From NCBI GenBank assembly GCA_030018135.1, contig JASEGJ010000011.1:1-36020 (forward strand): a stretch of DNA of 36,020 bases, read 5' to 3'. The translations under genes were made by a program, and so were the position numbers. Below the pieces are notes generated by a model. That model saw only the letters and a list, made by a program, of their open reading frames with translations, did not search any database and had not been told where the DNA came from. How positions within the stretch are numbered: position 1 is the stretch's first letter; each line of letters starts with the position of its first letter. Shown in pieces: positions 2,337 to 35,728 of this stretch. The DNA comes from Candidatus Hodarchaeaceae archaeon (GTDB lineage: Archaea; Hadarchaeota; Hadarchaeia; Hadarchaeales; Hadarchaeaceae).

Positions 2337-5264
2337 TTGATTGTGGTAGAATTGAAAAAGGCCGGGGACATCCTCGAACTCTTCTCAAGACCAATAAAGG
2401 AAGCGATCGAGCGAAGGGGCTTCATGGCATTAACTGAACCGCAGGAGAAGGCGATACCCCATATATTCAGGGGCGATAACGTCCTCCTCATCGCGCCCTC
2501 GGGTACCGGCAAGACGGAGGCCGCAATGTTGCCTGTCTTCGACATGCTAATCGCCTCGCAAAAGTCGCCGGGCATCAAGCTTCTCTACGTGACGCCGCTG
2601 AGGGCGCTCAACAGGGACATGCTGGAAAGGCTCGAGTGGTGGTGCAAGGCCCTCGACCTCCGCATAGCCACGAGGCACGGCGATACAGATGTTAGGGAGA
2701 GGGCAAAACAGGCGCTCGCGCCGCCGGATATCCTGATAACCACGCCCGAGACGCTCCAGGCGATCTTGGTCGGCAGGGTGCTCCAGCGCCACCTGCAAGC
2801 CCTGCGATGGGTGGTCGTAGATGAGGTGCACGAACTCGTGAACAACAAACGGGGAAGCCAGCTCGCCCTAGCGCTCGAGAGGCTCAGGCTGGTGGTGGGC
2901 CACGACTTTCAGACGATCGGCCTGTCGGCGACGGTCGGCTCGCCGGATGAGGTGGCTAGGTCGCTAGTCGGCGAGGGGCGCGAATGCATCATTCTAAAGG
3001 TTCCGGTTGCGAGGATGATGCTCCTCAAGATTTTATACCCGAAACCGACGAAGGAGGACTCGGCGCTGGCGGCGAGGCTTTATACATATCCCGAGGTCGC
3101 GGCGCGTCTCCGAGCCATGCGCGAGCTGATGGAGAAGTACCGCTCGACCTTGCTCTTCACAAATACCCGCTCGATAGCCGAAATCCTGGCAAGCCGCTTC
3201 AAGACTTGGGACATAAACGCACCCATAAGCATTCATCACGGCAGCCTGTCGAAGCCCTCGAGGCTTCAAACTGAGGGCGGGTTAAAGCAGGGTTCCCTAA
3301 AGGGCGTCGTCTGCACATCGTCGCTCGAACTCGGGATAGACATCGGCTCAATAGAACTCGTCATTCAGTACAACTCGCCGCGCCAAGTTACGAGGCTTGT
3401 GCAAAGGGTCGGGCGAAGCGGCCATTGGCTTGAGTGGGTCGCAGAGGGCGCGATAGTGTGCATGGACTCGGACGACCTCTTTGAATCGGCGGTCATAGCC
3501 AGACGGGGGCTCCAAGAAGACCTAGAATCGGTCAACATCCCGAGAAAGCCCCTCGATGTGCTGGCGCATCAAATTGCTGGCCTGCTCATGCAGCGGGAAA
3601 CTTGGTCGCTCTCCGAGATCTTAAAGCTGTTCACCAAAGCTTACCCCTACCGTGACCTTGACAGGCGCGAGCTGCAGGAAGTGTTAAACTATATGTATAC
3701 TAGAAGCCCCCGACTGGCGAATCTTTCCGCGGACGGAAAACTGGTTTCAAAGCCGTTCAATCGAAAGCCTCTTTATGACTATTACTTCTCCAAACTTTCC
3801 ACGATTCCGGAGGAGGTACAATACCTCGCGGTTGATGACGTGACAAATTCGCCCGTGGGCTTGCTCGACGAGGCTTTCCTCGCTGAGCATGGGGAGCCGG
3901 GGACGAGGTTGATCCTCAGGGGCTCGGCTTGGGAGGTACTCCACATCTATGAGAACACCGTCTACCTGAAGCCCGAGCACGACCCGACCGGTGCGATACC
4001 GAGCTGGGTGGGCGAGGAGATACCTGTACCGCTGGAGGTCGCGATGGAGGTCGGGGAAATCAGAAGGCTTGTTGAGCAGGAGATCGCGGACGGCAAGTCC
4101 GTATCGAACATCGTCGAGGGATTAAGCACGAGATACCCGATCGACGGAGAGGTGGCCGAGCGCGGCCTGTTGGAGATGCTCGAGCAATTGAAGCGAGGCC
4201 TACCGCTGCCCACGGATCAAAGGGCGACCGTCGAAGAGTGGGGAGAGATGATCATTGTGAACTGCACCTTCGGCTTGCTCGTCAATCGCACGCTCGCCCG
4301 ACTTTTGGGACATGTGCTCAGCGAGAAGATCGGCGCCTCCGTTGGGGTGCATCAGGACCCATATCGAATCGTGCTCAAAAGCCCCGACCTAACCGCGCGG
4401 GATGTAATCTCAACCATAAAGCAGCTTGCATCTTCGCCGATAAGACCGCTCCTCCGCCAGGCTGTGGCAAAGACCGGGTTGTTCAAGCGCAGATTCATCC
4501 ATGTCGCTAGGCGCTTTGGGGCGATGGAGAAGGGAGCCGAGCTGAGCTCCATGAAGATGTCACGGCTTTTAAAGGCATTTGAGGGGACGGTGGTTCATGA
4601 AGAAGCGATCACCGAAACGCTGGCCAACGATTTCGACGTCGAGGGTACCATGAAGGTGATGGACATGATAAATCGCGGCGACATAGATGTGGTACACATC
4701 GAGAACAAGGGCGAGCTCACGCCGATTTCTAGGGTCGGGATAACAGAGCTCACCTGGAAGAGCGACATCGTGCCGCCCGAGCGGATGCGGAAGGTGCTCA
4801 TCGAGTCCACGCGGGCTAGGGTAATGGGCGAGGGCAAGGTGCTCGCCTGCGCCGACTGCTGGAAATATTGTGAGCTCAAGGCTGTAAAGGACATCCCGCC
4901 GGAGCCCCGCTGCCCCGCATGTGGCTCGCGCTCCATGGGCGCGGTGGACGAGGAATACGAGCGGGTGCGAGAGGCGTTGGAGAAGTTCGCCCACGGCGAA
5001 AAGCCCACGCCACAGGAGGCTAGGATAAAGGGCGAGATCTCGAAAACTTCCAAGCTGGTCGGTAAATATGGCGCATCGGCGGTCGCAGCACTTTCGGCGC
5101 GCGGTTTGACCTTAAGTGAGGTCGAATCCGTTCTGGAGCGGGAAAGCGAGTTGAACTCACGCTTCTTCGAGCTGCTCCTCGAAGCTGAGAGGCAAGCATT
5201 GAGAAAGAGGTTCTTGTTCAGGCCCAGATATCGACTCGGCCGTCGGACCCGGGCGATGAAATGA
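2337..5264 (+). CDS. lhr: Lhr-type DEAD/DEAH-box helicase
   Basis: A 975-aa superfamily 2 helicase of the Lhr family (ATP-dependent DNA or RNA:DNA unwinding in repair). Visible motifs are Walker A APSGTGKTEAA (about 53-63), TPLRALNRD, motif II VVVDEVHEL (DEVH at 162-165), motif III GLSATVG (195-201), and in RecA2 SSLELGIDIG and QRVGRSGH. A winged-helix and Lhr-core region follows. A four-cysteine ribbon near the C-terminus (C838, C841, C859, C862) resembles that of archaeal Lhr2-type proteins. The start is TTG at 2337, or GTG at 2343. A TTTAATTA element at 2313-2320 lies 17-25 nt upstream, so the mRNA is probably leaderless. Its stop lies only 9 nt from the stop of the convergent KITE-like gene. 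Confidence 0.93.
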   Translation: MIVVELKKAGDILELFSRPIKEAIERRGFMALTEPQEKAIPHIFRGDNVLLIAPSGTGKTEAAMLPVFDMLIASQKSPGIKLLYVTPLRALNRDMLERLEWWCKALDLRIATRHGDTDVRERAKQALAPPDILITTPETLQAILVGRVLQRHLQALRWVVVDEVHELVNNKRGSQLALALERLRLVVGHDFQTIGLSATVGSPDEVARSLVGEGRECIILKVPVARMMLLKILYPKPTKEDSALAARLYTYPEVAARLRAMRELMEKYRSTLLFTNTRSIAEILASRFKTWDINAPISIHHGSLSKPSRLQTEGGLKQGSLKGVVCTSSLELGIDIGSIELVIQYNSPRQVTRLVQRVGRSGHWLEWVAEGAIVCMDSDDLFESAVIARRGLQEDLESVNIPRKPLDVLAHQIAGLLMQRETWSLSEILKLFTKAYPYRDLDRRELQEVLNYMYTRSPRLANLSADGKLVSKPFNRKPLYDYYFSKLSTIPEEVQYLAVDDVTNSPVGLLDEAFLAEHGEPGTRLILRGSAWEVLHIYENTVYLKPEHDPTGAIPSWVGEEIPVPLEVAMEVGEIRRLVEQEIADGKSVSNIVEGLSTRYPIDGEVAERGLLEMLEQLKRGLPLPTDQRATVEEWGEMIIVNCTFGLLVNRTLARLLGHVLSEKIGASVGVHQDPYRIVLKSPDLTARDVISTIKQLASSPIRPLLRQAVAKTGLFKRRFIHVARRFGAMEKGAELSSMKMSRLLKAFEGTVVHEEAITETLANDFDVEGTMKVMDMINRGDIDVVHIENKGELTPISRVGITELTWKSDIVPPERMRKVLIESTRARVMGEGKVLACADCWKYCELKAVKDIPPEPRCPACGSRSMGAVDEEYERVREALEKFAHGEKPTPQEARIKGEISKTSKLVGKYGASAVAALSARGLTLSEVESVLERESELNSRFFELLLEAERQALRKRFLFRPRYRLGRRTRAMK

Positions 5265-5273
5265 AGGACTAAA

Positions 5274-5843
5274 TTACTTTAACCCCACTTCCTTCCCCAT
5301 TACCTGCTGAAGCAAGGTCCTGCTATCTATCTCCGCCCTAGCCTTCCAACCAGCGTAGAGCATGTCCTGTTCATCCTGCGACAGATAACCCCGCTTGATG
5401 AAGCGGTCGAGCGTCATCCCCACCACCCACTCGGGGAACTTTTCCTTGAGGAGCTGCTCCACCTCGCCTCTCGACGCCTTGCCATGTTTGGAGTAAAGAT
5501 AGGCCAAGGCAACGGAAAGCATGGCGAGTTCATCAACCCGCCACCCCGAGAGGTGAGCTTCGGTGGGCGATATCGGTCCCTTCGCCACGACATAAAACCT
5601 GGCCCTCTCGAGCTGCTCCTCTGTTGGCTTCGCTGGTTCTTCCGCCTGCTCGTAGACCACTCTTATTTCTAACCCGAGTTCGTCTAGTTGTCTTCGCGCG
5701 AGTTCGAGGATTTTTACGTAGTCCTTCCCCAAGCTCTTCCTCAGCTCCCATCCACGGATGCCTGGGGAGCGATGCCTCTGGAAGAGTAGCAGACGAACCG
5801 CCCGCCTCACCTTTTGAATGAATTCTGCCTCTTCCTCAGCCAT
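5274..5843 (-). CDS. Nse3/MAGE-like tandem winged-helix (KITE) protein
   Basis: A 189-aa protein, last gene of the smc operon; its start overlaps the kleisin gene by 8 nt. I see two winged-helix-like units. The first (about 10-90) contains FIQKVRRAVRLLLFQRH, then LGKDYVKILELARRQLDELG and a strand RFYVVAKG. The second (about 101-182) contains VDELAMLSVALAYLYSKHGK, then LDRFIKRGYLS and GWKARAEIDSRTLLQQVM. In Nse3/MAGE proteins the second unit has the same order: LL..iLs.I..kg, a KYLE-type helix end, then WGPRAxxE followed by an L-rich helix. Nse3 and ScpB are KITE proteins that bind the kleisin of an SMC complex. The call rests on motif order and operon position; a generic ScpB-like KITE is the alternative. 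Confidence 0.6.
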   Translation of the reverse strand: MAEEEAEFIQKVRRAVRLLLFQRHRSPGIRGWELRKSLGKDYVKILELARRQLDELGLEIRVVYEQAEEPAKPTEEQLERARFYVVAKGPISPTEAHLSGWRVDELAMLSVALAYLYSKHGKASRGEVEQLLKEKFPEWVVGMTLDRFIKRGYLSQDEQDMLYAGWKARAEIDSRTLLQQVMGKEVGLK

Positions 5844-6633
5844 GCTTACCGGACCTCCTCGCCTTCTCCCACTGCTCGTGGGTAAGGGGAACCGGCATTG
5901 AACTCATGGGGGCTGCTTTCCCCTGCCCGTCCAGGGGCCTGATGTAAATCTCTCCCTTGAGAGGGTCTTGCTCCAATGTCGCGAGCGCTTGGGAGATCAT
6001 GAAAGCAACATAGTATGCCCTCTCGACGGACTTCTCGTAGGTGTCCTCAAGGACGAACTGCCAATAGTCGACCCTTCCAGACTTTGCCTCTTTCCTCAGC
6101 TGGCTGTAAAGTGCCTCAACCCTCTCCTTCAGCTCCGCCTGGGAGACGAACCTGAACTTAAGCAGCTCGAGTAAGGACATAGAACTCGGCGAGGTCTCGG
6201 CGACCTCCTCCATCCTCATTCGCTCGCGGAGCGGTGGGAGGGTGTTCCAATAGTCTGCCGCCTCCTCAAGCCTCTTCGGCGTGATCTGCTCGAGCACCAT
6301 GAGGGGCCTCCACGCCGCGAGTAGGCAACGTGAGAGCTCCTCCGGCTCGAGGAGCTTGAGCTTCATCTCCACGAGAGTTGGGTCGACGTAAAGCATCGAC
6401 GCCTGCCGCTTGATCCAATCACCCTGAAGCTTAATCACGGTCGAGAGCTCGTTAAACGCCTCCGCATCCGTAAGTAACTCGTCCACCGTCTTCCATCGCG
6501 GCAAATACTTCCTCAGCACCTCTAGCTTTCTCCTCACGTCCACGTCGAAAGGATCCAATCCCTTGAGCCTGACGCTTTGGCAGAGACTTATCACCCTTAG
6601 AAGTTCCCCGAGTGCGACCTTCCTGTTCATCAT
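5836..6633 (-). CDS. Kleisin (ScpA/Nse4-like) subunit of an SMC complex
   Basis: A 265-aa protein between the SMC and KITE-like genes; its ATG overlaps the smc stop by one base (TGATG). The N-terminal part carries RLKGLDPFDVDV (about 22-33), matching the ScpA hallmark LDPWDIDI, then a DAEAFNELSTVIKLQGDWIK helix similar to the ScpA helix that ends in the AxxLxxIKS region. The C-terminal part has AYYVAFMISQALATLEQ then GEIYIRPL (about 207-234), like the kleisin winged helix that ends FLALLEL...Q...F..I.I. In SMC complexes the N-terminus binds one SMC neck and the C-terminus the cap of the partner head, with KITE proteins on the middle. Residues 235-265 are a probably disordered tail. A second ATG at 6630 is equally possible. 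Confidence 0.7.
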   Translation of the reverse strand: MMNRKVALGELLRVISLCQSVRLKGLDPFDVDVRRKLEVLRKYLPRWKTVDELLTDAEAFNELSTVIKLQGDWIKRQASMLYVDPTLVEMKLKLLEPEELSRCLLAAWRPLMVLEQITPKRLEEAADYWNTLPPLRERMRMEEVAETSPSSMSLLELLKFRFVSQAELKERVEALYSQLRKEAKSGRVDYWQFVLEDTYEKSVERAYYVAFMISQALATLEQDPLKGEIYIRPLDGQGKAAPMSSMPVPLTHEQWEKARRSGKHG

Positions 6634-8513
6634 CAGCTCACGACCGAAACCTCTGATTTGCCTTGAACCTTTTGCACAACGATCATGTTCGCGGCCTCGC
6701 TGCTGAACACGACCTGGCTGGGGGTGATGAAGATGTACTGCGCGTCGGCATCTCCAGCCGAATCGAAGATGAGCCTCGCCATCAGCTCGCGATTGAGCGG
6801 GTCCATGTGTATATCGAACTCGTCCACCGCGCGCAGGGGCGATTTCAGATGTTGCTGGAGCGAGAGCAAAAACGCCATTATCGCTACTGTCCGCTCGCCA
6901 CCGCTTTGGGTGTAAGCGTCGAGCACCAATGACTCGCCACCCCTGTGGCCGACGAGGACCTCGAGCCCTGCCTCCTCGACGTTCTCAATATTCACAAGCC
7001 TTACCGAGCCGGACGCCCCGGCCCTAGCTAAGTTGGATTGATAAAGCGGATTGACCTCCTCGATGAGCTTCTCGAGCGTCCTCCTCCAGATTGACTTCCT
7101 CAGCTCCACATCTTCAAGCGCCTTCTGCCTGTTCTCCGTCACTTCCCTTATCCTGTCGCTTAGCTGGCTATAGATCTCGAGATGGTGGTTGTAGACCTCC
7201 TCCGCCTCCTCGGATACCTCCGCCAGGGATAGAAGCTGAGCGTTGACGTACTTGAGCTCCTCGAGCACCTCGGCAGGCGTCCTCTCGGTGGGAATTCTCT
7301 CTCCGGCCTTTGCGTGGAGCGGCTCAAGTTGTTTGAGGCCTTCCTCTTCCTCCGAGATCTTTCTGTTCAAATGGCGAATCTCCCTCTCGACGATCTCCCT
7401 CCTATACATAGAAATTGCCTCGTCCACCCTGACTTCAACTATTTTATCGAAGAGCCCTGAGATCTCCTTTTCGGACTTCGCTATGTCGCCCTCGATTTTA
7501 GCTACGCTCTGCTCAAGCCCCTTCTTCCCGCCAAGGGATTTGGGCCGCTTACCAGCTACGCCGGAGCCGCCGACCGTCTTGAGGGCCTCCAGCTGTGCTC
7601 TCTGTTTTTCAAGCGCGATGAGGTCGTAGAAGAGCCTCCGGTACTTAAATCTCTCCTGCTCGAGCTGCTGGGAAAGGGAGTCGTAGCTGGACTGCCTCTC
7701 GGCGATCCTGCGCGTCAGCTCCTCGAGCGTCGCTTCCTTTTGTTTGATCTTCTTCTTAAGTTCCTCGATGTCCCTCTCATGTTTTGTTATCCTTGCCCAG
7801 ATCTCCTCCCTCTCGAGAATTGCCTTTTTAGACCTCAGCTCGCGCTTGAGCTTGAGCCTCTCGTACTGCTCCTTCCAGTAGCCCAAGGTTTGTTCCGCTG
7901 ACCTTAACAGGTTCGTGACCGCCTCTTCCTCGCTGAGGAGCCTGTTCAACTTTTCCTGAGCCTCCAGCACCTTGCGCCTGTAATCCTGAAATCCAACGGC
8001 CTCCTCGACGAGCTGTAGCCTTTCCTCGGGCGAGATAACGCCAAATTGCTCGATCATGTTCTGATGCATTATGACAAGCAGGTTGTCCGGATTTAAGCCG
8101 ATCTCCCTGAAGATGCGCTCAACCCTACCTTTCGGGACCTGCCTATAGTCCATCTCATACCAATAGGTGCCGTCTTCCTTCAAGTATCTTGAAACTGCGA
8201 CTGAGTCGGAGCGACTGAAGGGGAAGGGCCTAACGCCGTTTATGGGCTTGTTGTCGAACAAAAGCGTTATTCTCCCGGCCTTTTTACCATGTCTTATTAA
8301 ATCACGCAGCTTTCTGGCGCGCTCAGTGTAGCTCTGACCTATCGCGACCGAGATCCCAACGAGGATCGCGGATTTTCCAGCCCCGTTCGGTCCGCAGATT
8401 AGATTCAAGCCAGGCTTGAAGGGGATCCTAGCGTATTCATATGACATGAAGTTCTCCAGGATTACCTCCTGAACGTGCGTCCTCGAAATCTGAGTTCCTT
8501 TAACAGTCGGCAT
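6633..8513 (-). CDS. Compact Smc5/6-like SMC ATPase lacking a hinge
   Basis: A 626-aa SMC/Rad50-superfamily ATPase. N-terminal head: VILENFMSYEYARIPFKPGL, Walker A GPNGAGKS (41-48), IRHGKKAGRITLLFDN, Q-loop MHQN (149-152). C-terminal head: signature TQSGGER (535-541), Walker B and D-loop RAVDEFDIHMDPLNRE (561-576), then AQYIFITPSQV. The NFMSY opening, DEFDxxMDxxNR and QYxFITPxxx read like eukaryotic Smc5/Smc6 rather than Smc1-4 or Rad50, where this site has an H-loop. Arms are about 130-150 residues each (roughly 176-310 and 333-480), against about 300 in usual SMCs. They meet at a Gly/Lys-rich turn GGSGVAGKRPKSLGGKKG (315-332), with neither a globular hinge nor a CxxC hook. It is first in the operon with the kleisin and KITE-like genes. 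It likely acts on chromosomal DNA. Confidence 0.8.
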   Translation of the reverse strand: MPTVKGTQISRTHVQEVILENFMSYEYARIPFKPGLNLICGPNGAGKSAILVGISVAIGQSYTERARKLRDLIRHGKKAGRITLLFDNKPINGVRPFPFSRSDSVAVSRYLKEDGTYWYEMDYRQVPKGRVERIFREIGLNPDNLLVIMHQNMIEQFGVISPEERLQLVEEAVGFQDYRRKVLEAQEKLNRLLSEEEAVTNLLRSAEQTLGYWKEQYERLKLKRELRSKKAILEREEIWARITKHERDIEELKKKIKQKEATLEELTRRIAERQSSYDSLSQQLEQERFKYRRLFYDLIALEKQRAQLEALKTVGGSGVAGKRPKSLGGKKGLEQSVAKIEGDIAKSEKEISGLFDKIVEVRVDEAISMYRREIVEREIRHLNRKISEEEEGLKQLEPLHAKAGERIPTERTPAEVLEELKYVNAQLLSLAEVSEEAEEVYNHHLEIYSQLSDRIREVTENRQKALEDVELRKSIWRRTLEKLIEEVNPLYQSNLARAGASGSVRLVNIENVEEAGLEVLVGHRGGESLVLDAYTQSGGERTVAIMAFLLSLQQHLKSPLRAVDEFDIHMDPLNRELMARLIFDSAGDADAQYIFITPSQVVFSSEAANMIVVQKVQGKSEVSVVS

Positions 8514-8538
8514 GAGTATCGACCAAATTCTTCTCCAA

Positions 8539-8548
8539 CTTATTTTAG
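8539..8548 (-). promoter_or_regulatory. TATA box for the smc operon
   Basis: The minus strand reads CTAAAATAAG, 26-35 nt upstream of the smc ATG at 8513, which predicts a very short leader. The divergent 8606 gene shares this intergenic region. Confidence 0.45.
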
Positions 8549-8605
8549 GTCTCCAAGCCTTAAGAAAGGTGTGAGTACCCGTACTTAACGTCGATAATTG
8601 GGGCG

Positions 8606-9304
8606 ATGGGTGGAAGGATGGTCACGGCTGGGAAGATCTTTCGGCTGAGGGAGGAGATGGGCCTGAAGGCGATAGCCGCCAGATTAAAGGACCTTAGAGA
8701 GGAAGAAGCCCACCCCGTGGAAGGCGGCGAGGTAGGGCTCTTGACGGAGGTGTCCGATCTGAGCCTTTCTGCGGAGGACCTAAAAGGCATCTTCTCCCAG
8801 GATAAGGTCATCGAAATCTACCAGAGGGGCAAGTTCGTCCAGCAGGTGAAAACGAGGGAAACGCCATTTTTATTCTCATCCTACCGCGGTCACGTGCTGT
8901 TGACCATTTTGGAGCGAAAATTTCAGGCCAACAATATAGCCAACCAGCTCAGCAAGGCACTGTTCATCACCTCTGGTCAAATAGCGGAAGCCAAGATCTC
9001 GCCGGAAACCCTTAAAGCATTCCACGAAGGCAACCCGGAGGACACGAAGGTGATATTTTTCGACGAGGTAGACATGCCGAACATAAACAAGCTCTCGCTC
9101 TACGGCTCTGGTTTGATCGACACCTCGCTGTACAATGAGTACTGCAGTCGCGGGAAAATTTGGTACATGGTGTTCAAGTCCAAGAAGTATGGGTACATAG
9201 TCGGGGTAACGCGAAATGCTATAGTCACCATCTTCAACAACGTATCGAGAGATGAGTTTACGAGCTACGTGAAGAGCGAGGTCTTCCCGTTGCTGTCCCT
9301 GTAG
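8606..9304 (+). CDS. Conserved-looking protein of unknown function, divergent from the smc operon
   Basis: I do not recognise this 232-aa protein. It has no signal peptide, membrane segment or cysteine cluster. The N-terminal third is helical and charged (LKAIAARLKDLREEE at about 22-36). The rest looks like a mixed alpha/beta fold, with strands such as TKVIFFDEVDMP, IWYMVFKSKKYGYIVGVT and NAIVTIFNN. The second half (YMVFKSxKYGYIVGVTRNAI) vaguely recalls Roadblock/longin-like profilin folds, but this is only an impression. The start is either ATG 8606 or ATG 8618; the latter has GGTGG at 8609-8613 and may be the true one. It is separated by 92 nt from the divergent smc gene, and tRNA-Ala follows in the opposite orientation. 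A link to the SMC complex is possible but rests only on position. Confidence 0.75.
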   Translation: MGGRMVTAGKIFRLREEMGLKAIAARLKDLREEEAHPVEGGEVGLLTEVSDLSLSAEDLKGIFSQDKVIEIYQRGKFVQQVKTRETPFLFSSYRGHVLLTILERKFQANNIANQLSKALFITSGQIAEAKISPETLKAFHEGNPEDTKVIFFDEVDMPNINKLSLYGSGLIDTSLYNEYCSRGKIWYMVFKSKKYGYIVGVTRNAIVTIFNNVSRDEFTSYVKSEVFPLLSL

Positions 9305-24548: not shown

Positions 24549-25734
24549 GTCCATCAAGCACTTTTATGGCATCGTGCATCTTTATGTTGGTGTCCATTTG
24601 GGTTTCGATGAAGCACTCGTCAGAATTTGCAACCATGAACCAACGCTCGAGGATCTAACACTCTTGCTTCGATCGACAGACAATCAGCTGACCGAATTGA
24701 TCAACCAAGCATCGGATGTTCGTGAGCTGGGGGGGCGCGAGGTCAGCTATTCGCGCAATGTTTTTTTGCCAATCACAAACCTGTGCCGCAATCGCTGCTG
24801 GTACTGTGGCTTTAGGCGCGACCCGGGCGACTCCGAGGCTTGGTTCATGTCGCTTGGGCGGGTTGCCGAACTCCTCGAGCGCGCGAGGGATGCCGCTTGT
24901 TCGGAGGCGCTTTTCACGCTCGGCGAGAGACCCGAGGTCCATGCGGAGGTCGGACGAGCACTCCGCGAGCTAGGGTATGAAATGATGATCGATTACCTGG
25001 AGGACCTTTGCCAATTTACGCTGAGTTTGGGATTGCTGCCTCACACGAATGTGGGCGTCATAAGTGAACGCGAGATGCGACGCCTGCGAAGGTTGAATGC
25101 AAGCATGGGGCTGATGTTGGAGTGCGCCGCGGATCTACCCGCGCACAGGGATAGCCCGGGCAAGGATCCACTTTTACGTCTGGAGGTGATAGAAACGGCC
25201 GGCAAGCTACGAGTGCCCTTCACCACCGGCCTGCTCATAGGCATAGGTGAGAGCTTCGAGGATCGGGCGCTCTCTTTGCTCTCGATTAAAAAAATTCATG
25301 ATGAGTACGGTCATATCCAAGAGATCATCATTCAAAATTTCGTGCCCAAGCCGAACACCCCGATGGCAAACTGCCCCGGCCCGAGCATCGAGGAGTTGTT
25401 AGCGATAGTTGCGACGGCGCGATTGTTGATGCCCGAGATGAACATCCAGGTGCCGCCGAACTTGCTGGATTTCAAGTGTGGACTTGAAACTTTCCTTTTG
25501 GCGGGCGCAAACGATCTGGGTGGGATCTCGTCCGTGACGCCAGATTTCATCAATCCCGATCACCCTTGGCCTAGCGTCGTCGAACTCCGAGCTTCGATCG
25601 AGCGGGCTGGGTTCGTCCCATGCGAGCGGTTGCCAATTTACCCACGCTACGCGAGAAACCCGAAGTTCATGTCGAGGGAGGTGAGAAAAGTTGTGCAAGA
25701 TCTTGCAGACGAGAACGGTTACCGCAGGGGCTAA
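24547..25734 (+). CDS. cofG: CofG, radical SAM half of F0 synthase
   Basis: About 395 aa from ATG 24547; the frame is open further left, but that part only mirrors cofC. With CofH it makes the deazaflavin F0. The radical SAM cluster is CRNRCWYC (C80, C84, C87), followed by the usual EALFTLGERPEVH, GYEMMIDYLEDLC, HTNVGVI and QNFVPKPNTPM segments of CofG, and a late GANDLGGISSVTPDFINPDH. Other starts are TTG 24598, which fits a CTTTTATGG TATA-like box at 24558-24566, and GTG 24574. In many archaea cofH directly follows cofG; here an endonuclease gene lies between. Family length (about 330-390 aa) is intact. Confidence 0.93.
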   Translation: MSIKHFYGIVHLYVGVHLGFDEALVRICNHEPTLEDLTLLLRSTDNQLTELINQASDVRELGGREVSYSRNVFLPITNLCRNRCWYCGFRRDPGDSEAWFMSLGRVAELLERARDAACSEALFTLGERPEVHAEVGRALRELGYEMMIDYLEDLCQFTLSLGLLPHTNVGVISEREMRRLRRLNASMGLMLECAADLPAHRDSPGKDPLLRLEVIETAGKLRVPFTTGLLIGIGESFEDRALSLLSIKKIHDEYGHIQEIIIQNFVPKPNTPMANCPGPSIEELLAIVATARLLMPEMNIQVPPNLLDFKCGLETFLLAGANDLGGISSVTPDFINPDHPWPSVVELRASIERAGFVPCERLPIYPRYARNPKFMSREVRKVVQDLADENGYRRG

Positions 25735-25833
25735 ATCGCTGAATCTGCGTGATTCGGAGGATATATCAGCAATCCGCGTTACGGATCGGAGCGCTTATAG
25801 GTTACTTTCGGTCCCCTCTCCCCCCCAAAACCG

Positions 25834-25845
25834 TTTAAAAGCGTC
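25834..25845 (+). promoter_or_regulatory. TATA-like box ahead of the endonuclease gene
   Basis: CCGTTTAAAAGC lies about 40 nt before the proposed GTG start at 25880, suggesting the endonuclease gene brought its own promoter. Confidence 0.4.
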
Positions 25846-25879
25846 CCCTAAATCACGAGCGGAAAACGAAACGTGGAGG

Positions 25880-26701
25880 GTGATAACGATCGAGCGCCAC
25901 CTGAAACGACGAGGAAATTATCTGCGCAAGAAAATCTCTTTTCGTGTTTTAAAACAAATGTATGGGGATGCCCTTCAGTTCCACCAAAAACGCGGATGGG
26001 GAGCCAGAAGAATCGCAAAATTGTTGACGCAACGTTATCAAACCGTGCAGAACTATGGACGCGAGTTTTCGTGGATTACTGTTGGCGGTTGGCTATACAA
26101 AGGTCATAACCCACTTAACGTTGTTAACACGTTGGACTGGAGCAAGCGATACGAGCTCGGATATCTAATCGGCGCTAGACTCAGCGATGCGTCCCCAGTC
26201 ATTGGGAAGAGGTGCAATAATTATGGACTCGAAACGGCGTCAAAAGACAAAGATTACGCTTTAGAACTCGCGCGGGTAGGCACAAAAGCTCACCAAAAGG
26301 ATAAGCCGTATGTAGTGCGTCGGTATGCCGGCGGCCATTGGCGTGTTTACGTATCCGGCGGAGAACTCGCTGAGTTACTTTCCATGGATCTGATGAAACT
26401 AAAACCATTCATAGAAGGTGACGCAAAAATTGCAAAAGGAGTTACACGCTCGTTCTTTGATGGCGACGGAAGTGTGGGTGGAAGAAATATCTCTGCTTAC
26501 GGAGATAGAGAAACGCTCGAATTCATCGTCGGCCTCTTGCGCAAACATTTCATGATAAATGCGTACGTTTTGTCAAAGCCCGTCTACAGGCTCCACATCC
26601 CCCGTAGATACTGGTTGGATTTCTATGAGGAGATAGGTTTCGCTATTCGCAGAAAGCAAAGAGTCTTGGCTGAGTTAATCAAAGAGCGTAAGGTGTTCTA
26701 A
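25880..26701 (+). CDS. LAGLIDADG homing endonuclease, free-standing
   Basis: About 273 aa from GTG 25880; the frame is open to 25691, overlapping cofG, but that part is not protein-like. There are two LAGLIDADG helices, LGYLIGARLSDAS (about 93-105) and KGVTRSFFDGDGSVG (about 186-200). Both end in the acidic residue needed for cleavage, so this is a single-chain nuclease that looks active. An N-terminal HTH-like stretch (KRGWGARRIAKLLTQRY, then TVGGWLYKG) precedes it, as in some archaeal intron and intein endonucleases. It sits between cofG and cofH with its stop 1 nt before cofH. Such genes cut a target site and copy themselves in. The neighbours are not split, so it is neither an intein nor an obvious intron. 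Confidence 0.88.
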   Translation: MITIERHLKRRGNYLRKKISFRVLKQMYGDALQFHQKRGWGARRIAKLLTQRYQTVQNYGREFSWITVGGWLYKGHNPLNVVNTLDWSKRYELGYLIGARLSDASPVIGKRCNNYGLETASKDKDYALELARVGTKAHQKDKPYVVRRYAGGHWRVYVSGGELAELLSMDLMKLKPFIEGDAKIAKGVTRSFFDGDGSVGGRNISAYGDRETLEFIVGLLRKHFMINAYVLSKPVYRLHIPRRYWLDFYEEIGFAIRRKQRVLAELIKERKVF

Positions 26702-28842: not shown

Positions 28843-29583
28843 TCACCTGAACAAATCTCGCTCCAAAGGCATCACCAGATCGCGCGCGCTTCCAAAACCT
28901 CGCTCGTAGACTGCACCCTTTATAATAATGACGGGCGTTCCCTCGTTTGCCTCGCCCATTACCGCGACCGCGGTCGCAGCCAACGCATCGGCCGGCGAGG
29001 TGATGGTGGTCTTCAGTTCCTTGCCGTAAAGGTCACGCCTGCCGCGCATGTCAAGCAGTGGTTTAATGCCGGCGACTCCGACCGCGACTCCGACCGCACC
29101 GCACCTGAATGGCCTGCCTTGCGTGTCCGACACGATAACCGCGACATCAACACCAACCGCCCGCTTTATACCATCTCGTATTTGCCTAGCGCTTGCGTCA
29201 GGGTCCTTTGGCAGGAGCGTCACGTGCTCATCCCAAACGTTCGAGTGGTCGACGCCAGCATTTGCGCAGACGAAGCCGTGCTCGGTGCGCGCGATCAAAA
29301 CGTGTTTCAGTCTGACTATTTCCTTGGATTGCTGTAGGATGACTTCAACCTCGCGCGGGTCCTTGTCCAATTGTCCGACAAGTTTCCTCGCGCGCCGACT
29401 GGGCTCTATGGTTCTGAGGTCAACTACCCTACCCTCAGCCTTCGAAACGATACTCTGCGCCACGACCACGACATCCCCGTCCTCCAAGCGCAAGTTTTGT
29501 TCCTCTAAAGCGTGCACGATGAGTTCATCGATGCGATCACCCCTCTTCACCAACGGCAGGCCCTTGAGCGCGATTACCTCCAC
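28843..29583 (-). CDS. cofE: CofE, coenzyme F420-0:L-glutamate ligase
   Basis: A 246-aa GTP-dependent ligase that adds gamma-linked glutamates to F420-0. Family motifs are IALKGLPLVKRGDRI, GDVVVVAQSIVSKAEGR, the metal-binding FVCANAGVDHSNV, and DTQGRPFRCGAVGVAVGVAG with the D-T pair near residues 152-153. The lengths and motifs are intact, so it is the likely true F420 ligase. It is first of a two-gene unit with cofD. A divergent paralogue lies at 34958-35728. The divergent mer-like gene starts 53 nt away. Confidence 0.94.
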   Translation of the reverse strand: MEVIALKGLPLVKRGDRIDELIVHALEEQNLRLEDGDVVVVAQSIVSKAEGRVVDLRTIEPSRRARKLVGQLDKDPREVEVILQQSKEIVRLKHVLIARTEHGFVCANAGVDHSNVWDEHVTLLPKDPDASARQIRDGIKRAVGVDVAVIVSDTQGRPFRCGAVGVAVGVAGIKPLLDMRGRRDLYGKELKTTITSPADALAATAVAVMGEANEGTPVIIIKGAVYERGFGSARDLVMPLERDLFR

Positions 29584-34957: not shown

Positions 34958-35728
34958 GTGCGGGTGTTGGGTTTAAACATGCCGCTAATCAAGCCGGGCG
35001 ATGAGCTGCCACAGATGATTTTGAAAGCCGCTGAGCAGGTCGGCGGCCTCAGGGACGGCGATATCGTAGTCATAGCATCGAGCGCCCTCGCAACCGCGCA
35101 GGGGCGCCTTAGGAGGCTCGCGAGTGTCCGCGCGTCCCCTCGCGCGAAGCAGCTGGCGAAGGAAAGCGGCCTCGAGCCAGAATTTGTGGAGCTTGTGCTC
35201 AGGGAGGCAAAAGAGATTTTGGGTGCGACCAAGCGGGCCTTGATGACCCTTAAGGGTGGCACGTTCCGTGTGAATGCCGGCATAGATCACTCCAATGCTC
35301 CCCCAGGGTACGTCGTGTTAATGCCAGCCAAGCCAAATCGGGCCGCAAACGAGATCATGCGGGCGCTTAGACAGCAGTCAAATGCCCTCGTCGCCGTAAT
35401 AGTCGCGGACAGCCACATTCAGCCGCTTCGACTCGGCACGATCGGCATGGCGGTCGGCGTCGCTGGCATGGAGCCGGTGATCGACTGTCGCGACCAACTC
35501 GACCTCTTCGGCAAGCCCCTGCGGATAACCTTCAGAGCTGTAGCGGATCAGCTCGCTTCGGCGGCGCAGGTCTTGATGGGAGAGGGCGCTGAGCGGGTGC
35601 CGGTCGTAGTCATACGCGATGTAGGCGTGGCCCTCGTGGACGCGCCAAAAGTCTCGCCTAAAATTGCGCCGAAGCGCTGCGTGTACATCGGCTCGTTGAA
35701 GCTCCTAAAGCTTTTTAAAAGGCGCTGA
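34958..35728 (+). CDS. CofE-like glutamate ligase, second copy
   Basis: A 256-aa paralogue of CofE. The fold is intact: MPLIKPGDELP, GDIVVIASSALATAQGR, FRVNAGIDHSNAPPGY (metal site) and LRLGTIGMAVGVAGMEPVID. But the active-site stretch reads DSHIQPLR where CofE has DTQGRPFR, so T, G and R are replaced. The substrate may therefore differ. It follows the DHPS-like gene by 31 nt; a role in glutamylation of a pterin or other cofactor is a reasonable idea, not shown. The start is GTG at 34958 with GGAGG at 34945-34949. The tail, GSLKLLKLFKRR, is short and basic. Confidence 0.85.
   Translation: MRVLGLNMPLIKPGDELPQMILKAAEQVGGLRDGDIVVIASSALATAQGRLRRLASVRASPRAKQLAKESGLEPEFVELVLREAKEILGATKRALMTLKGGTFRVNAGIDHSNAPPGYVVLMPAKPNRAANEIMRALRQQSNALVAVIVADSHIQPLRLGTIGMAVGVAGMEPVIDCRDQLDLFGKPLRITFRAVADQLASAAQVLMGEGAERVPVVVIRDVGVALVDAPKVSPKIAPKRCVYIGSLKLLKLFKRR

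Follow-up and report, generated by a model that had tools for sequence, protein, structure and literature searches.

The Smc5/6 complex is a ring-shaped DNA-repair machine of eukaryotic cells, and SMC-kleisin complexes have been defined as rings that are closed by a hinge. In the clamp formed by yeast Smc5/6, DNA is held by the heads from below and by Nse3 from above, with Nse4 serving as the scaffold that links all parts (PMC9191643). From archaea, SMC proteins related to SMC5/6 have been published (Yoshinaga and Inagaki 2021, as described in PMC9389158), and archaeal Smc-ScpA has been reported to work without a KITE protein, KITE subunits being generally absent (PMC7055376). Two departures from the hinge-closed form are on record, namely an SMC of marine Actinomycetes without hinge or zinc hook (PMC12153180) and an engineered Wadjet JetABC that was trimmed to its head-proximal core, in which plasmid cleavage, an activity that depends on extrusion, persisted with cross-linked arms and ceased once the link was reduced (PMC12647877). 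Here a three-gene operon is described from contig JASEGJ010000011.1 of a Candidatus Hodarchaeaceae archaeon, a member of the Hadarchaeota (36,020 bases; the whole contig was analysed and is called the window below; genome size 1.1 Mb, 92.9% complete). The operon probably encodes a compact archaeal SMC-kleisin-KITE complex of the Smc5/6 type that would act as a DNA clamp.

With eukaryotic Smc5/6 the predicted complex shares related SMC heads, an Nse4-type kleisin, a KITE that is likely of the Nse3/MAGE type and the same three-part logic. It differs in having a single SMC and a single KITE where the eukaryotic counterpart has two of each, no recognizable hinge and short arms; the KITE is too small to hold a RING domain, and Nse2, Nse5 and Nse6 are not in the operon (none was seen beside it; no genome-wide search was made). 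The published archaeal SMC5/6-related SMCs likewise have heads that group with eukaryotic SMC5/6 and, as far as their description allows a comparison, probably overlap with the clade of the operon SMC, whereas the part of that description covered here is silent on kleisin, KITE, loss of the hinge and neighbouring genes (PMC9389158). The original prediction, made from the letters of this DNA alone, had allowed that archaeal relatives may already be described; such SMCs are indeed in the literature, so the class itself is not new. Bacterial and archaeal Smc-ScpA-ScpB also has SMC, kleisin and KITE encoded together, but its ScpA and ScpB families are not Nse4 and Nse3, a hinge is usually present, and a separate copy exists in the same genome. 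The hinge-less SMC of marine Actinomycetes resembles the operon SMC in lacking both hinge and zinc hook; it differs in belonging to a bacterial clade, with no kleisin or KITE reported (PMC12153180). Core-only JetABC is likewise an SMC-kleisin-KITE assembly cut down to the head-proximal part, but it is engineered, belongs to the Wadjet family and requires an artificial cross-link at the arm tips (PMC12647877).

Three overlapping genes on the minus strand had been proposed in the original prediction, and open reading frames (ORFs) were found at exactly these places (Table 1). The ATG of the kleisin gene and the stop codon of the SMC gene have 1 base in common, and the KITE and kleisin genes overlap by 8 bases. 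All motifs that had been named were located in the ORFs (NFMSY, RAVDEFDIHMDPLNRE, QYIFITP, LDPFDVDV and GWKARAEID); the only correction concerned GWKARAEID, which occupies KITE residues 165–173 and thus lies short of the extreme C-terminal end. The products had been taken for an SMC of the Smc5/6 type, a kleisin with a winged-helix-like end and an Nse3/MAGE-like KITE with two winged-helix units, and all three attributions were borne out by the searches, models and trees that follow.

Judged by its sequence, the 626-residue protein is an SMC ATPase with a head of the Smc5/Smc6 group. When its family profile was searched against the PDB, the top ten matches were all yeast or human Smc5 or Smc6 chains, which ranked above archaeal SMC and SMC2/3. 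Head phylogeny was calculated by maximum likelihood from 51 rows and 359 columns with a Rad50 outgroup; the final tree contained five Rad50 sequences (an earlier version had one), and a long-branch canonical row (L095) was removed. In this tree, in which the eukaryotic rows were the sequences of PDB records and SMC1, SMC4, ASRP sequences and human SMC2 were not included, the operon SMC clade joined eukaryotic Smc5 and Smc6 with a support of 98/94, and archaeal canonical SMC, SMC2, SMC3 and Rad50 fell outside. Walker A, the Q-loop glutamine, the ABC signature and Walker B were invariant in 26 relatives (residues in Table 1), so the SMC should be an active ATPase. One SMC of the Smc5/6 type was counted in the genome, the other match being a canonical SMC.

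Neither a hinge nor a zinc hook is predicted in the operon SMC. Between the end of the N-lobe at R179 and the conserved N461, the 26 relatives have 233–320 residues, a span too short for a hinge domain, into which two arms of an estimated ~115–140 residues each would fit, which is near the head-proximal part of longer SMCs; the apex of this hairpin is variable (Table 1). Among these 26 aligned relatives no CxxC was present between the lobes. The Pfam family SMC_hinge gave no match in the operon SMC, was absent from the 25 most frequent family matches of its relatives and had no match anywhere in the genome, while short SMCs of other archaea (~830–850 amino acids), which served as positive control, matched it at 1e-25 or better. 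As a separate observation, at L053:5952-8943 (contig C22), the canonical-type SMC of the same genome (773 amino acids) also has no recognizable hinge; it adjoins ScpA (222 amino acids), with ScpB close by. In two genomes of the same order only a sub-threshold SMC_hinge remnant is retained.

By profile and by model alike, the 265-residue protein was identified as a kleisin whose nearest match is Nse4. The protein alone matched Nse4_C weakly (0.0045, residues 188–257); across the family, 49 of the 59 relatives carry the domain, with 1.5e-7 as the best value. Searched against the PDB, the family profile retrieved human EID3, which belongs to the Nse4 family of kleisins, with an E value of 2.4e-6 and yeast Nse4 with one of 7.4e-5, ScpA following at just 0.5–0.8, and the ScpA and ScpB families did not match either the kleisin or the KITE of the operon at E 1. 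In an AlphaFold model (predicted local distance difference test, pLDDT, 82.7), the N-terminal part was a helical domain that includes one long helix, and the C-terminal part was a winged helix. With this model, Foldseek placed yeast Nse4 first (7qcd_F, 7.7e-6), followed by an SMC-head-bound ScpA winged helix and then by cohesin and condensin kleisins. The LDPFDVDV motif resembles KLDPWDVDI in the ScpA of the same genome.

For the 189-residue protein a KITE fold is supported by structure prediction, and an affinity to Nse3 is likely. The AlphaFold model (pLDDT 82.5) was a tandem winged helix, and its leading Foldseek matches were MAGE-G1 (5hvq_D, 4.1e-6) and Nse3 (7dg2_C, 6.2e-6; TM 0.61 by query length); other MAGEs, MukE and the Nse1 and Nse3 chains of yeast Smc5/6 structures were also retrieved. 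Of 59 relatives, 6 matched Pfam MAGE (3.6e-4 at best), and the Nse1 model matched 5 of 18 (best 0.026). The operon holds this one KITE, which has no Pfam RING match; the KITE profile found one copy in the genome, and a diverged second KITE elsewhere may have escaped this profile.

The operon is present in ~18 genomes of the same order. In a scan of named archaeal genomes, from which the best 80 of 400 loci were taken (a few of them identical with the order members just counted), SMC, kleisin and KITE were contiguous at 64 of the 80 loci, and these 80 spanned Bathyarchaeia, Nitrososphaeria, Methanomethylicia, Hecatellales, Hadarchaeota and relatives of ANME-1; recurrence of one gene order on this scale means that the operon is not a product of chance. 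The SMC gene stood apart in 12 genomes, mostly ANME-1 and relatives, and in 11 of these 12 the kleisin and KITE genes lay elsewhere, adjacent to each other. Over 394 genomes, the kleisin and KITE profiles picked out nearly identical genome sets. Linkage and co-occurrence of this kind are the pattern of partners in one complex. A split operon, with the SMC in one place and kleisin and KITE in another, was noted in the ANME-1-like genomes G394-G405 (loci L238-L259).

Two genes flank the operon. Upstream lies a divergent gene for a protein of ~230 amino acids, which was found within 3.5 kb in 49 of the 66 loci with enough upstream DNA and was divergent every time; it also adjoins the operon in 20 loci of the same order. 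Of the 29 surveyed genomes in which the kleisin matched strongly, 28 have this gene; the 11 further genomes that have it belong to a single genus. Its protein family is highly conserved, and no convincing Pfam family was assigned to it. On the other side, a convergent Lhr-type helicase gene is a candidate functional partner: among 56 testable loci, 26 have Lhr no more than 3.2 kb away from the KITE gene, and in 23 of those 26 it is convergent.

Table 1. Positions in the window of the operon genes, their domains and motifs, and the two flanking genes
Feature	Position	Strand	Evidence or remark
Short Smc5/6-type SMC ATPase, hinge-less, 626 amino acids (predicted)	6633..8513	-	PF02463 (SMC_N) E 1.3e-31; best PDB match yeast Smc5, E 4e-27; tree 98/94 with Smc5+Smc6
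Walker A GPNGAGKS, SMC residues 41-48	8370..8393	-	G41, P42, N43, G44, G46, K47 and S48 invariant in 26 relatives
Coiled-coil hairpin apex, SMC residues 301-340, hinge place of other SMCs	7494..7613	-	Least conserved (0.27-0.31), 21-28% gaps, indels
ABC signature SGGER, SMC residues 537-541	6891..6905	-	S537, G538, G539 and E540 invariant in 26 relatives
Walker B RAVDEF, SMC residues 561-566	6816..6833	-	R561, D564 and E565 invariant in 26 relatives
Nse4-like kleisin, 265 amino acids (predicted)	5836..6633	-	Nse4_C (PF08743) in relatives; PDB profile and fold matches to Nse4
N-terminal helical domain of the kleisin, residues 1-80, expected contact with the SMC neck	6394..6633	-	Helices 4-24, 33-46 and 50-80; pLDDT mostly >95 to residue 70
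Kleisin C-terminal winged helix, residues 165-233, expected SMC-head cap	5935..6141	-	AlphaFold model; short Foldseek matches to the ScpA and Scc1 C-terminal winged helices of SMC-head complexes
KITE of likely Nse3/MAGE type, tandem winged helix, 189 amino acids	5274..5843	-	Predicted fold; weak MAGE matches
Divergent gene, 232 amino acids, no recognized family, candidate fourth partner	8606..9304	+	Recurs beside the operon
Convergent Lhr-type helicase, 975 amino acids, candidate functional partner	2337..5264	+	DEAD, DEAD_assoc and WH_Lhr domains

For its order, the SMC studied here is atypical. It groups with Methanomethylicia and Nitrososphaeria in a clade (100/98) that excludes four other Hadarchaeota rows, and the neighbouring Lhr is likewise nearer to TACK sequences. 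SMC, kleisin, KITE, the 230-residue gene and Lhr (2337-9304), here and in genome G005, look nearer to TACK archaea than to other Hadarchaeota. Misbinning of the contig was considered because of this TACK-like character and is unlikely, since tetranucleotide profile and GC content fit the rest of the genome; acquisition of the block by transfer is therefore suggested as the likelier explanation. Elsewhere in the window, the ORF at 25691-26701, between two genes that resemble radical-SAM F420 cofactor synthases, looks like a homing endonuclease, and the similar pair of ORFs at 28843-29583 and 34958-35728 looks like paralogues of F420 gamma-glutamyl ligase (CofE), all judged by eye.

From these parts, the following arrangement can be envisaged. 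Two copies of the one SMC ATPase would engage via ATP; the Nse4-like kleisin would connect one copy, at its neck, with the other, at its cap, and the Nse3-like KITE would sit on the kleisin and close a DNA clamp above the engaged heads, with DNA kept in the compartment of heads, kleisin and KITE. As the SMC has no recognizable hinge, its arms would be unable to form the large ring in the usual way, and a link between the arm tips, if there is one, would have to use another contact. Either the tips join in such a way, or the complex would chiefly clamp DNA instead of extruding loops over long range. It would probably bind and stabilize intermediates of repair or replication, perhaps aided by the Lhr helicase and the divergent 230-residue protein; by homology and by the Lhr neighbour, on which this preference depends, such a clamp is favoured over a long-range loop extruder.

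Several results weigh against an Smc5/6-type clamp of this composition. The predicted template modelling score (pTM) of the kleisin model was 0.43 and its whole-chain TM-scores were low, because the arrangement of its domains is uncertain. Sequence matches of the KITE are weak, so that its assignment depends mainly on a predicted fold with a pTM of 0.47: a broad KITE profile retrieved no KITE from the PDB, and a narrow one placed a MAGE-domain protein first at just E 0.048, which is why the fold search was used. Roughly half of the testable loci have no Lhr nearby. Finally, trimmed Wadjet needed joined arm tips (PMC12647877), so that an SMC without a joining device might not extrude loops.

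How the operon relates to the eukaryotic complex is a historical question, and an unduplicated ancestral form would be compatible with an Smc5/6-type clamp. The original prediction had called it a single-SMC version that is either ancestor-like or reduced. One SMC and one KITE stand where eukaryotes have Smc5 with Smc6 and Nse1 with Nse3, which has the look of a state before duplication; the KITE family weakly matches both the MAGE and the Nse1 models, and a tree that pairs Smc5 with Smc6 and leaves the archaeal clade outside this pair was not rejected (p-AU 0.354). On the other hand, the missing hinge is most simply explained by secondary loss in the archaeal clade, because canonical SMCs and eukaryotic Smc5/6 have hinges, and this speaks for a reduced side branch. 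Inside the Smc5/6 group of the head tree, support for the archaeal clade as such is weak (55/53), and the Smc5 and Smc6 branches are long. On this point of the earlier description the findings are mixed, and an unduplicated ancestral form is possible but somewhat doubtful.

An alternative is defence against plasmids or phages by a system like Wadjet, Lamassu or MADS. Wadjet, too, combines SMC, kleisin and KITE; the PADLOC models mad3 (2.2e-29) and JetC (2.5e-12) match the operon SMC, and eukaryotic Smc5/6 restricts extrachromosomal DNA (PMC10586767). These PADLOC matches, however, fall on the shared ATPase head or coiled coil, and no PADLOC model matches the kleisin or the KITE. The operon contains no nuclease gene and no further gene able to be JetD, and its stable order and presence in most genomes of one order are unlike the patchy occurrence typical of defence genes. 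Such a function is improbable. A canonical, chromosome-organizing Smc-ScpA-ScpB that is merely shortened and no relative of Smc5/6 would account for the good match of the SMC_prok_A model to the SMC head (E 2.3e-55), for the ScpA-like motif at the N-terminus of the kleisin and for its ScpA-like C-terminal winged helix, but the genome has its own canonical-group SMC with ScpA and ScpB on contig C22, the operon SMC goes with Smc5 and Smc6 in the head tree, the kleisin matches Nse4_C and the KITE matches MAGE/Nse3, which makes this explanation very improbable. A repair ATPase like Rad50 or of the ASRP (coalescin/Sph) type is scarcely credible: ASRPs do include short SMC-like ATPases of ~600 amino acids, and the ASRP model NF045487 (NCBIfam) gives the operon SMC 62.5 bits, but its cut-off is 300 bits, and the zinc hook found in Rad50 and in the majority of ASRPs (PMC9389158) is missing from all aligned relatives of the operon SMC. 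Neither kleisin nor KITE partners belong to Rad50 (PMC10586767), a separate Rad50 with CPVC is encoded on contig C43 of the genome, and Rad50 is set apart in the head tree.

Relative to the literature covered, which did not extend to the likeliest place for such a description (van Hooff et al. 2025, Cell Rep 44:115855), no account was found of a hinge-less archaeal SMC5/6 with an Nse4-type kleisin and a KITE, and the combination of one kleisin, one KITE and an SMC that lacks a hinge, together with its gene neighbourhood, is new within that scope. Tentatively, the operon may represent a natural and widespread hinge-free machine of the Smc5/6 type, with a fourth protein of no recognized family and Lhr as partners, that descended from a state with a single SMC and a single KITE before the duplications that gave Smc5 and Smc6, and Nse1 and Nse3. 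A relative with one SMC and one KITE would be useful for tracing the origin of the eukaryotic Smc5/6 heterodimer and of the Nse1/Nse3 pair, and the operon qualifies the view of archaeal SMC complexes as generally KITE-less (PMC7055376). The neighbouring ~230-residue protein is a concrete new candidate subunit. Retained in several archaeal phyla, a naturally hinge-less SMC with kleisin and KITE would reveal if a closed ring is required at all for DNA clamping and ATP-driven action, a question that was posed in 2025 by the engineered core-only Wadjet (PMC12647877), and so stripped-down a complex may reveal what an Smc5/6 machine can do without its hinge.

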